From the NCBI GenBank assembly GCA_902777325.1, contig CACYTH010000005.1, forward strand, positions 1 through 64,000: 64,000 bases of DNA, written 5' to 3'. Under the pieces are notes generated by a model, which had not been told where the DNA came from, ran no database searches, and worked only from the letters and a program-made list of their open reading frames with translations. Each line of letters begins with the position of its first letter. Position 1 is the first letter of the stretch. The position numbers and the translations under genes were made by a program. Origin of the DNA: an uncultured Coriobacteriaceae bacterium. Its GTDB lineage: Bacteria > Actinomycetota > Coriobacteriia > Coriobacteriales > Atopobiaceae. Below, one piece after another: positions 28,998 to 33,549 of the stretch.

Positions 28998-29705
28998 TCA
29001 GATGCGCACCATGCGATACCCGACGCCGACATGCGTCTGGATGTAGCGTGGCCGCGAGGGATTCTTCTCGATCTTCTTGCGCAGCGTGCCCATGAACACG
29101 CGGAGTGACGCCAGGTCCCCGTCCTGCGAGGTGCCCCAGACCTCCTTCAGGATGTACTGATGGGTGAGCACGCGATCGGTGTTCTGGGCCAAAAGGCACA
29201 GGAGCTTGTATTCCATGGGCGTCAGGTGAAGCTGCCTGCCGTCGAGTCCGACCGTGCCGGCGGCAAAGTCGATGACGAGGCCGCCGTTGGTGAAGACGGC
29301 CTGCTGGGGAGCCGCGTCATCCGCCATGTAGCCCAGATGGCGCTCGGTCGTGCGCAGACGGGCGAGAAGCTCCCCGACGGAGAAGGGTTTCGTCAGGTAG
29401 TCGTCGGCACCGGCGTCCAGCGCGTCGATCTTGTCGGAATCGTCGGAACGTGCCGATATGACGATGATGGGCATGTTGGACCACGTGCGGATGCGGCGGA
29501 TCACGTCCACCCCGTCCACGTCGGGGAGCCCGAGGTCGAGCAGGACGATGTCAGGGGCGGTGGTTGCCGCCGATGCGATGGCCGCATTCCCCGTCTCGGC
29601 CGTCGCGTACTGGTAGCCGCGCGACTCGAGTGCCGTCGAGATGAGGTTGCGGACCGCCGGGTCGTCCTCGACGACCAGTATGGAGTGGCTGTCGTGCTCA
29701 GGCAT
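28998..29705 (-). CDS. kdpE: KdpE-like OmpR-family response regulator
   Basis: The 235-residue product has a receiver domain with the phosphoacceptor Asp57 in VLLDLGLPDVDG, the conserved Lys in TKPFSVGEL, and a C-terminal winged helix (LTPMEYKLLCLLAQN, YILKEVWG, RVFMGTLRKKIEKNPSRPRYIQT, VGVGYRM) that is very close to KdpE. Translation starts at 29705, eight bases inside the end of the kinase gene; the open frame extending upstream to 29858 is only antisense-free read-through of the kinase region. The target is probably the divergent kup gene, since no kdpFABC operon is present here and phased OmpR-type boxes lie in between. Confidence 0.88.
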   Translation of the reverse strand: MPEHDSHSILVVEDDPAVRNLISTALESRGYQYATAETGNAAIASAATTAPDIVLLDLGLPDVDGVDVIRRIRTWSNMPIIVISARSDDSDKIDALDAGADDYLTKPFSVGELLARLRTTERHLGYMADDAAPQQAVFTNGGLVIDFAAGTVGLDGRQLHLTPMEYKLLCLLAQNTDRVLTHQYILKEVWGTSQDGDLASLRVFMGTLRKKIEKNPSRPRYIQTHVGVGYRMVRI

Positions 29706-30828
29706 ATGCGATGACCTCCTCGGCAGGAAGGGTAAACACAAAGCGCGACCCGTGCGGGTCGACATCCTCCACGCGGATGGTGCCCCCATGGGCCTCGACC
29801 ACCGACCGGCATAACGCAAGGCCGATGCCCGTGCCACGAGCTGAGTCTGCACCGCCACCCGTGTAGAAGAGCTCGAAGATGCGGCTCTTGTCCTCGTCCG
29901 CGATGCCAGGCCCGTCGTCTGCGACGGATATGGCCACCATGGGACCCTCGCGCATCGAGGATATGGTGATGGTCGAGTCGGGCTGGGTGTGCGCGATGGC
30001 GTTGTCCACGAGGTTGACGATCACCTGCACGATGACCTGCGGGTCCATCTTGGCAAGCAGCAGCTCGCGCGATGGCTCGACCGTGATCTGGTGACCCTCG
30101 GCGTTGCGGCTCGCGTGCCGTATGGCCTCCTCGATCACGTCGTCCACAAGCTCTATGCCCGTGTCGAGGGAGACGTTGCCGTCCTCGATGCGCGTCACGG
30201 CCAGCAGGTTCTCCACCATCGTGCGCAGCCAGGTCGCGTCGTCGCGAATGTCCGTCACCAGCTGGCGGCGGGAGTCCTCCTCCAGATGCGTCTCCTCGTC
30301 GAGCAGCATCTCCGCGTCGCCGATGATGGAGGTGAGGGGCGTGCGCAGGTCGTGGCTGACCGAGCGCAGCATGTTGGCGCGCAGCTGCTCGCGCTGGGCG
30401 ACGAGCGAGGCCTCGGTGGACTGCCGCTCGATTCTCCGAAGCCTTGACACGAGATAGTTGGCGAGAAGGGCGAACACGATCATGGCACCGATGGTGCCCA
30501 CGTAGCCTGGCCCGTCGATCGCGAGGGAGAAGCGCGGCGCGATGAGGAAGAAGTTGTAGCTCAGGATGGAGATGAGCGACGCGAAGACGCTGTAGCCCAG
30601 GCCATTGGTGAGGATGGTGGTGACCAGCACTCCCAGGACGAAGACGATGACCATGGTCGCATCGGGAAGCCCGAGCCCGTCCAGGGCAATCGCCAGCAGG
30701 GTGGCAAGCGCTTGGCACAGGAGCACGAGTCCGGTGTTGAGCACCACGCTCATGCCCGTGCGCCCCTCGACCAGCGACTGGATCCCAGCTAGCGTTTCGA
30801 CGAGACTCTCCCGCGAAGAACCAGGCAA
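29698..30828 (-). CDS. kdpD: Short KdpD-like sensor histidine kinase
   Basis: The product has four transmembrane segments of the KdpD (DUF4118) type followed by a HisKA domain with SVSHDLRTPLTSIIGDAEM and an HATPase domain with VNLVDNAIAH, VADDGPGI and GTGIGLALCRSVVEAHGG. It has about 376 residues and lacks the large cytoplasmic KdpD/UspA sensor part of the roughly 900-residue full-length protein. I placed the start at a TTG (30826-30828) because GGAGG lies five bases upstream. A GTG at 30897 has no ribosome-binding site and would overlap the small gene before it; an ATG at 30753 is another candidate. It overlaps the regulator gene by eight bases. Confidence 0.85.
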   Translation of the reverse strand: MPGSSRESLVETLAGIQSLVEGRTGMSVVLNTGLVLLCQALATLLAIALDGLGLPDATMVIVFVLGVLVTTILTNGLGYSVFASLISILSYNFFLIAPRFSLAIDGPGYVGTIGAMIVFALLANYLVSRLRRIERQSTEASLVAQREQLRANMLRSVSHDLRTPLTSIIGDAEMLLDEETHLEEDSRRQLVTDIRDDATWLRTMVENLLAVTRIEDGNVSLDTGIELVDDVIEEAIRHASRNAEGHQITVEPSRELLLAKMDPQVIVQVIVNLVDNAIAHTQPDSTITISSMREGPMVAISVADDGPGIADEDKSRIFELFYTGGGADSARGTGIGLALCRSVVEAHGGTIRVEDVDPHGSRFVFTLPAEEVIAYA

Positions 30829-30874
30829 CTCATCCTCCACCAACCCCACGGCACGCGACGCGGGGGATAGCCAA

Positions 30875-31045
30875 CTAGATGAGGGAGAGTATGGCACAAA
30901 CGAGGCCTGCGAGCACGAGGCTTGCTGCTACGGATGTGACCCTGGCGATGCGGGGTGTCACTAAGAAGAGGTCGGTCTCGTCGGCGGGGAGAAACTCTGC
31001 CGTCCTGGTCAAGAGCGTGCGATCTTCGGCTCCCCAGTCTGCCAT
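30875..31045 (-). CDS. Small membrane protein (56 residues) upstream of the KdpD-like kinase
   Basis: Reading on the minus strand from an ATG at 31045, a 57-codon frame ends with TAG at 30875. AAGGAGGT (31053-31060 on the complement) lies seven bases before the start and is a near-perfect ribosome-binding site. The product begins MADWGAEDRTLLTRTAEFLP, has a charged half of about 35 residues, and ends in one hydrophobic helix (SVAASLVLAGLVCAILSLI). I do not recognise it. It is first in a three-gene minus-strand operon with the kinase and the regulator, 46 bases before the likely kinase start. A single-helix modulator of the kinase or of Kup is a reasonable inference but is not shown. Confidence 0.72.
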   Translation of the reverse strand: MADWGAEDRTLLTRTAEFLPADETDLFLVTPRIARVTSVAASLVLAGLVCAILSLI

Positions 31046-31141
31046 GGCTCGTACCTCCTTGTTTGCCGTGCATCTTTACCTGTCGTTTTGTGCAAGTGAA
31101 GCGCTTTGGGTCTAAAGACGAGATAAGGGTTTGGCGTCTGG

Positions 31142-31236
31142 CATAAAGCTCGGATTAACGCTGCAGCTTGCGGGGTGGTTGGAGGCCTCTCCCTGGCCTA
31201 AAGGCAACATAAAGGTGGCATAAAGCAAGCATAAAG
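31142..31236 (+). promoter_or_regulatory. Phased direct repeats, probable KdpE-like operator between the kinase operon and kup
   Basis: CATAAAG occurs at 31208-31214, 31219-31225 and 31230-31236, and CCTAAAG at 31197-31203: four 7-bp units spaced exactly 11 bp apart. A further CATAAAG at 31142-31148 lies 55 bp (five periods) upstream. Seven-base repeats with four-base spacers are the layout of PhoB/OmpR-family operators. On the complement the units read TTTATG-N5-TTTATG, like the TTTATA-N5-TTTACA arrangement of the E. coli kdp operator. The four-unit block sits just upstream of the likely kup promoter; the single unit lies nearer the minus-strand operon. Confidence 0.75.
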
Positions 31237-31245
31237 ACGCGACCG

Positions 31246-31330
31246 CTGACGGGTGCAGACCCAAGTCTGTCATCCTGCGTGATAGATTGCCCCATCTGAG
31301 CGGGCACCGCCGTGCCACAAGGCTCAGATG
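31246..31330 (+). promoter_or_regulatory. Possible kup promoter and structured leader
   Basis: CTGACG (31246-31251) and TGTCAT (31268-31273) could be a weak, activator-dependent promoter directly after the phased repeats. The leader then forms a two-part hairpin: CATCTGAGC (31293-31301) with GCTCAGATG (31322-31330), and inside it GGCAC (31303-31307) with GTGCC (31312-31316). It ends eight bases before the kup ribosome-binding site. No known riboswitch was recognised. Confidence 0.45.
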
Positions 31331-31347: not shown

Positions 31348-33549
31348 ATGGAGAAATCTACGAAGGAGCATGCTCAGTCGCACAAGGCTGGGATTCCGCT
31401 TTCCGCCGGCATGATTCTGGTTACCCTGGGCGTCGTCTATGGCGACATCGGCACCTCGCCGATGTACACCCTCAAGGCCATCATGAGTGGCAACGGCGGT
31501 CTTCCCACCATGAGCCAAGACGTGGTGGTGGGGGCGCTCTCGCTCATCATATGGACGATGACGTTGATCACCACCGTCAAGTACGTGCTCGTCGCCATGA
31601 AGGCGGACAACCACAACGAGGGTGGCATCTTTGCGCTCTACAGTCTGGTCAAGCATTGCGGCAGGATACTCATCGTGCCCGCCATGGTGGGAGGTGCCGC
31701 GCTTCTAGCCGATGGCATCCTCACCCCGGCCGTCACGGTCACCTCTGCCATCGAGGGCCTGCGAACCATCGATGCGGTCCACAACGTGATAGGTGACAAC
31801 CAGTCCATCGTCGTGGTCATCACCATCGCCATCCTGTGCGGGCTGTTCATCGTGCAGCGTGCGGGAACCTCCGCCATCGGCAAGGGATTTGGTCCCATCA
31901 TGACGCTCTGGTTCAGCTTCCTGGCCGTCTCGGGCCTGGTCAACATCATGGGCAACATAGGCGTCCTGCGCGCGATCAACCCCGTCCACGGCATCATGTT
32001 CCTGTTTGACTCAAGGCTCAACAATGCCGGCATCATGGTCTTGGGCAACGTGTTTCTCTGCACGACGGGTGCCGAGGCCCTGTACTCGGACATGGGCCAC
32101 GTGGGCAAGGCGAACATCTACGTGAGCTGGCCCTTCGTCAAGGCCGCCCTCATCATCAACTACCTGGGGCAGGGCGCGTGGATCGTGAGCCATCAGTCGG
32201 ATGCGGCGCTGGCTGCCATCCCTGACCTCAACCCCTTCTTCCAGATGCTTCCCGAGCGCGTGCGCATCTTTGCCGTGGTGCTCTCCACCTTTGCCGCCAT
32301 CATCGCGTCCCAGGCGCTCATCACCGGCTCCTTCTCGATCATCTCCGAGGCCATTCGCCTCGACCTGATGCCGCACATGAAGATCAACTACCCCTCCGAG
32401 AACAAGGGCCAGCTCTACATTCCGCTGGTCAACAGCATCCTCTGGGCGGGTTGCATCTTTGTCGTGCTGCTCTTTAGGACCTCCGAGCACATGGAGGCCG
32501 CCTATGGCCTGGCCATCACGGTCACCATGCTCATGACCACCATCCTGCTGTTCACGTACCTCTCCCAGATCCGCAGGATGCCTGCCGTGGCCGTGGTGTT
32601 CGCACTTGCGTTTGGCGCCATCGAGATGATGTTCTTCGTCTCGAGTCTGACCAAGTTCTTCCATGGCGGCTACGTGACGGTGCTTCTGGCCCTGTCGATC
32701 TTTATGGTCATGTACGTGTGGCGCCGTGGCACGGCCATCGAGCGCACGCAGAGCGTCTACCTCTCCATCCGCGAGTACATCAACCAGCTCGGCGAGCTGC
32801 GCTCCGATGCCGAGCTGCCCTATGTCGCAGACAACCTGGTCTTTCTGACCAACGACCGCTCGCTCGAGCGGCTCGACCGCGACATCCTCTACTCCATCCT
32901 CAACAAGCGCCCCAAGCGTGCGCGTGCCTACTGGTTCCTCAACGTGCAGGTGACCGACGAGCCCTACACCCACGAGTTCTCCGTCAACGACTTTGGCACC
33001 AACTTCGTCTTCAAGGTGCAGCTGCGCCTGGGGTTCCGCGTCAACCAGCGCGTCAACGAGTACCTGTACCAGATCGTGGAGACGATGGTTGCCCAGGGCA
33101 GGCTTGCCCCGCAGCATCGCCGCTACTCCATCTACCGCACCTCGGGTGACGTGGGCGACTTCAGGTTCTGCATGATCCGCAAGGTGCCCTCGGCCTCGAG
33201 CGACATCTCCGAGATCGACCGCACCGTACTAGGCATCAAGTACGCCATCAGGCGCATCTGCGGCTCCCCGATGGAGTGGTATGGGCTCGAAAACTCCTCG
33301 GTCATCATCGAGTACGTGCCGCTGTTTGCCCGTGCCAAGCGTCAGCACAAGCTTGCCTACGTGGAGATACCGGCCAAGATTGCCAAGAGGAACGAGCGCT
33401 ACCACAACTCCGTCGCAGACGACGACATCTTCTCGGCGACCATGCGCGACGCCCACCAGTACGAGGAGGAGATGGTGGCCGCAGCCGTGATCGGAGGGCA
33501 CACGGCCAGCTTCCGCCCCGTTACCATGGACGAGGAGGAGGGGGAGTAG
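31348..33549 (+). CDS. kup: Low-affinity potassium uptake protein Kup
   Basis: Kup is a proton-coupled potassium importer of the inner membrane. The 733-residue product has about 12 transmembrane segments over residues 25-475. It begins with the conserved GVVYGDIGTSPMYTLKAIM and contains GGIFALYSLVK, LLADGILTPAVTVTSAIEGL and GDMGHVGK-like DMGHVGKANI, and carries a long C-terminal cytoplasmic domain (about 480-733). The ATG at 31348 follows TTGGAG; the GTG at 31312 lies inside the leader hairpin and is rejected. It is divergent from the KdpDE-like operon, so potassium-responsive control is inferred. Confidence 0.93.
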   Translation: MEKSTKEHAQSHKAGIPLSAGMILVTLGVVYGDIGTSPMYTLKAIMSGNGGLPTMSQDVVVGALSLIIWTMTLITTVKYVLVAMKADNHNEGGIFALYSLVKHCGRILIVPAMVGGAALLADGILTPAVTVTSAIEGLRTIDAVHNVIGDNQSIVVVITIAILCGLFIVQRAGTSAIGKGFGPIMTLWFSFLAVSGLVNIMGNIGVLRAINPVHGIMFLFDSRLNNAGIMVLGNVFLCTTGAEALYSDMGHVGKANIYVSWPFVKAALIINYLGQGAWIVSHQSDAALAAIPDLNPFFQMLPERVRIFAVVLSTFAAIIASQALITGSFSIISEAIRLDLMPHMKINYPSENKGQLYIPLVNSILWAGCIFVVLLFRTSEHMEAAYGLAITVTMLMTTILLFTYLSQIRRMPAVAVVFALAFGAIEMMFFVSSLTKFFHGGYVTVLLALSIFMVMYVWRRGTAIERTQSVYLSIREYINQLGELRSDAELPYVADNLVFLTNDRSLERLDRDILYSILNKRPKRARAYWFLNVQVTDEPYTHEFSVNDFGTNFVFKVQLRLGFRVNQRVNEYLYQIVETMVAQGRLAPQHRRYSIYRTSGDVGDFRFCMIRKVPSASSDISEIDRTVLGIKYAIRRICGSPMEWYGLENSSVIIEYVPLFARAKRQHKLAYVEIPAKIAKRNERYHNSVADDDIFSATMRDAHQYEEEMVAAAVIGGHTASFRPVTMDEEEGE

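Follow-up and report, generated by a model that had tools for sequence, protein, structure and literature searches.

A KdpE-like regulator and an array of KdpE-type half-sites upstream of kup in an uncultured Coriobacteriaceae bacterium

The stretch of DNA analysed here, referred to as the window, comprises 64,000 nucleotides from an uncultured Coriobacteriaceae bacterium and harbors a kup gene divergent from an operon that encodes a small membrane protein, a sensor kinase and a response regulator. The intergenic DNA carries short repeats in 11-bp phase (Table 1). The locus raises the question of which protein reads these repeats and which of the two flanking transcription units is controlled through them.

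Table 1. Features of the kup locus, with positions counted from the first nucleotide of the window
Feature	Coordinates	Strand	Basis or proposed role
KdpE-like response regulator, OmpR/PhoB family	28998..29705	-	NCBIfam, PDB, tree
Sensor kinase, DUF4118 + HisKA + HATPase; start codon uncertain	29698..30897	-	Domain search
56-aa ORF, one membrane span, first gene of kinase/regulator operon	30875..31045	-	Translation
Pair A, TCTAAAG-N4-GATAAGG (units at 31111 and 31122)	31111..31128	+	Proposed operator of divergent kinase/regulator operon
Pair B, CATAAAG-N4-GATTAAC	31142..31159	+	Proposed operator of divergent kinase/regulator operon
Array C, CCTAAAG, CATAAAG, CATAAAG, CATAAAG, exact 11-bp phase	31197..31236	+	Proposed kup operator
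Probable extended -10 of kup, TGATAGATT; hexamer TAGATT at 31283	31280..31288	+	Conservation
kup, K+ transporter	31348..33549	+	Pfam K_trans and K_trans_C

The regulator had been called KdpE-like in the initial annotation, and both comparisons placed it nearest to KdpE. The top NCBIfam model was KdpE (230 bits, below the curated cut-off of 325, with MtrA models matching too), and the top PDB match was E. coli KdpE with 215 bits, the next regulator scoring 148 bits. The DNA-contact residues R193, R200 and T215 (as named in PMC3264566) were found to be kept in the alignment. No KdpA was found in the 2.74-Mb genome, so that the control of kdpFABC which characterizes KdpE does not apply here, and no kdpA was found in the other searched genomes of the genus. 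The kinase has no domains beyond the three listed in Table 1 and thus lacks the KdpD (PF02702) and Usp domains that mark a KdpD sensor kinase, unlike E. coli KdpD and unlike the kinases of the kdp-linked relatives L112 and L113, which carry both. A search of the contigs of named relatives returned distant kinases only. The 56-aa membrane ORF, a possible sensor partner of the kinase, has counterparts in several relatives of the same genus and gave zero matches in a Pfam search. In L089, L091 and L092 the kinase is likewise preceded by an ORF with a similar D..LFLS-plus-membrane-span pattern.

Sequence reading placed the half-sites of array C at 31197 (CCTAAAG) and at 31208, 31219 and 31230 (CATAAAG). 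These four units and a further one at 31142, 55 bp away, had been picked out earlier; all five are in place and their arrangement lies far above chance. The pattern CMTAAAG-N4-CMTAAAG with at most 2 mismatches had 3 matches within the window, every one inside array C, and 100 dinucleotide shuffles of the window gave a mean of 0.07 matches and never reached 3. A scan of the 2.74-Mb genome, proposed in the initial annotation and carried out by pattern matching only, found four matches to CNTAAAG-N4-CNTAAAG with at most 1 mismatch, three of which were the array; the reversed-pattern control gave 5. Pair B lies 55 bp before array C and 31 bp from pair A. Pair A and the second half of pair B (GATTAAC at 31153), both additions to the earlier annotation, are recognizable in same-genus relatives. 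Every site at the locus reads CTTTATG on the strand of the kinase operon.

The complement of array C, TTTATG-N5-TTTATG-N5-TTTATG-N5-TTTAGG, presents the TTTAT/CA-type half-sites, direct-repeat arrangement and 11-bp period of a KdpE operator. The closeness of TTTATG-N5-TTTATG to the E. coli operator, pointed out in the initial annotation, is confirmed by the published sequence: in E. coli, KdpE recognizes TTTATA-N5-TTTACA, which lies at -72..-50 relative to the transcription start (PMC3264566) and has the same geometry. The likeness to E. coli KdpD/KdpE thus covers the TTTATA/TTTACA half-site, the period, the upstream position and a regulator with the three contact residues; the window differs in its target, kup instead of kdpFABC, and in having four tandem half-sites instead of two. 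The minimal KdpE site of M. smegmatis, CCGTAAAGAAACCATCAAGGCC, was described as unlike any other reported KdpE site (PMC5401905). It contains CGTAAAG-N4-CATCAAG, which is the same motif with the same 11-bp spacing, and on the complementary strand it agrees with the half-sites of E. coli. The two sites, mycobacterial and E. coli, may thus be a single motif shown on opposite strands. M. smegmatis KdpE differs from the present case in controlling kdpFABC, and binding to the kdpDE promoter was not seen there (PMC5401905). The literature searched, which includes few subscription journals, yielded no report of a Kup transporter under KdpE control. The sole direct test found of KdpE on a kup promoter comes from S. 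fredii, which resembles the present genome in having both KdpE and a kup gene (PMC9239096). In a gel shift, S. fredii KdpE failed to bind that promoter (PMC9239096), which counts against control of kup by the regulator described here.

Of the other loci in the genus, six that have both kinase and regulator were found to keep the array, the first unit being imperfect in some, and a seventh (G123), with a regulator and no kinase found, retains three good units. Kup loci with an adjoining kinase and regulator in a second genus (g31), in G004, and in the g1 genomes L061 and L062 have one pair each; the pair is missing in g31 species without an adjoining regulator, of which L080 and L084 show a decayed version. 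With a weight matrix for pairs trained on the same-genus arrays, all 19 kup genes adjoining a regulator (18 with a kinase, one without) scored at least 23.8, and 0 of 45 control kup genes reached 18 (Fisher p = 1e-16, relatives being treated as independent despite their shared ancestry). Within g31 alone, a pair was present at 8/8 genes with a regulator versus 0/6 without (p = 3e-4). The relatives sampled are not independent and several assemblies are incomplete. Wherever a relative has the regulator next to kup, one good pair or more is retained, and loss of the repeats at a retained locus, named in the initial annotation as evidence that would speak against operators, was not seen.

Outside the kup-linked loci, the same motif was found before other transporter genes. 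Some 30 further loci in the family have a related kinase and regulator followed by a P-type cation ATPase gene, with TrkA next in those examined; in such loci (e.g., L086-L092) the kinase and regulator are orthologous and the same 11-bp repeats occur, the target being the ATPase instead of Kup. In the gap between regulator and ATPase the mean best pair score was 16.7 at 11-bp spacing versus 4.8 in shuffles, 11 bp gave the top score among spacings of 7-25, and the orientation was almost always one way. At a few of these loci, L092 (4535-4556), L089 (2361-2389)/L142 and L138, the units of the operator before the ATPase are spaced by 10 bp and not 11 bp. Three family relatives with kdpABC carry the motif upstream of kdpA, two of them as two pairs 31 bp apart, and in several sampled members of another family it precedes kdpA or the ATPase gene. 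Sampled members of family f2, among them the kdp-linked loci L170, L171 and L173, gave no pair above threshold; hence, the code is not shared by the whole order. The regulator tree groups all kup-linked regulators into a single clade (99/92), whose weakly supported sisters (92/69) are three ATPase-linked regulators. The initial proposal that a KdpE-like regulator had been rewired to control Kup and not a Kdp pump is supported as far as sequence goes, with a refinement: KdpA is missing from the genome, but the case is not simply one of a switch from Kdp to Kup, because related regulators adjoin a P-type ATPase gene with the same operator.

On this sequence evidence, the best explanation, to which we assign a probability of about 0.78, is that the KdpE operator code has been kept and the target transporter exchanged (Kdp, P-type ATPase or Kup), with likely autoregulation. 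In this reading, the KdpE-like regulator from the adjacent operon would recognize the repeats as tandem half-sites. Array C would serve as the upstream kup operator: dimers of the phosphorylated regulator may line up on its four half-sites, which are in phase, and assist RNA polymerase at the TGATAGATT promoter of kup, probably under K+ shortage. Through pairs A and B the regulator would act on its own operon, which also comprises the small ORF and the kinase gene. The code would be common to the regulator family, with sites before kdpABC, the P-type ATPase or, in one clade, kup. The locus could thus represent a natural case of a regulator whose DNA code is kept as the machine under its control is exchanged, with dozens of family loci available for comparison, and Kup is predicted to be under K+-dependent control at the level of transcription.

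The position of array C relative to the promoter bears on the direction of control. A consensus sigma-70 promoter scan near kup found nothing, and hence the -10 element was assigned from conservation only; the extended -10 (TGNTAG[AG]TT) is kept in 8/8 aligned same-genus kup promoters. A riboswitch near kup was ruled out, as nothing came near the gathering score in Rfam. Across eight same-genus loci the array units lie at -86/-75/-64/-53 from the kup -10 with at most 2 bp of variation. The sequence between array and -10 is unconserved, and the distance to the kup start codon ranges from 55 to 69. Such constant spacing over unconserved DNA argues for protein sites in helical register with the promoter. 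Some 47 bp separate the end of array C from the -10 downstream of it; with transcription assumed to start about 12 bp beyond the first base of the -10, the array spans approximately -98 to -59, an activator position. The regulator might instead bind array C and repress kup, since the direction of regulation is not readable from sequence, and kup expression in S. fredii drops at low K+ (PMC9239096), though at a promoter that KdpE does not bind. We regard repression as unlikely, given that the span of array C calculated with the assumed start overlaps the E. coli activating site at -72..-50.

A slightly less probable alternative is that the regulator binds the repeats solely to control its own kinase/regulator operon, kup being a mere neighbor. 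The shared CTTTATG reading on the kinase-operon strand is the orientation that the sites have relative to the ATPase and kdpA targets; conversely, array C is oriented relative to kup opposite to the sites before the ATPase and kdpA genes, which counts against kup as its target. Against control of the kinase operon only, the distance of array C to the kup -10 is fixed, whereas that to pair B varies in the genus (54, 55 or 65 bp), and the M. smegmatis site as printed has the kup-like orientation, its strand being unstated in the text of the paper (PMC5401905). Moreover, in G123, where no kinase was found, array C persists at kup and pairs A and B are gone. In the G123 regulator (L058:3460-4179, - strand), the phospho-acceptor aspartate (LLDLGLPD to LLGLELPD) and a conserved lysine are lost; a kinase may lie elsewhere, because this genome is only 83% complete. 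Control of kup in addition to autoregulation is thus preferred. The earlier suggestion that the regulator probably also controls itself gained support from two loci of the sister clade, L089 and L092, in which a double pair 31 bp apart recurs upstream of the kinase gene in the orientation of pairs A and B.

It is very improbable that the repeats are used by another OmpR/PhoB-family regulator, such as a PhoP/PhoB or MtrA homolog. Direct repeats of 11 bp occur family-wide and the window regulator matches MtrA models too, but the motif tracks the KdpE-like lineage over three transporter contexts, is missing at kup genes without the regulator, and has half-sites that fit KdpE and not the PhoB TGTCA. 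Chance or non-regulatory repeats, favored only by the shortness of the AT-rich unit, are contradicted by the shuffles and the conservation, and their probability is negligible.

The KdpE-like regulator may also act at a second kup gene in the genome of the window (G000:C3:200840-203020, L066). In its leader, CTTTAT-type units at 0, 11, 22 (degenerate) and 33 follow a TGATAGATT element similar to the kup one, the first unit starting 15 bp downstream of it. Similar leader arrays were found in L067-L069, L071, L074, L076 and L078; as a group the second-kup arrays scored above controls (p = 1e-5, with shared ancestry ignored), some being individually modest. A site downstream of the -10 is expected to block transcription, and an exchange of one Kup for the other is hence proposed. 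Tentatively, and with less than even odds, the regulator would activate kup via the upstream array and repress the second kup, the signal being sensed by the kinase without KdpD and Usp domains, perhaps together with the 56-aa protein.

In L164 and L165, which belong to a genus of another family, kup, kinase and regulator are consecutive genes sharing one strand, and kup is preceded by a weak pair, TCTAAAG-N4-TATAAAT. The kup link in this genus is perhaps of separate origin.
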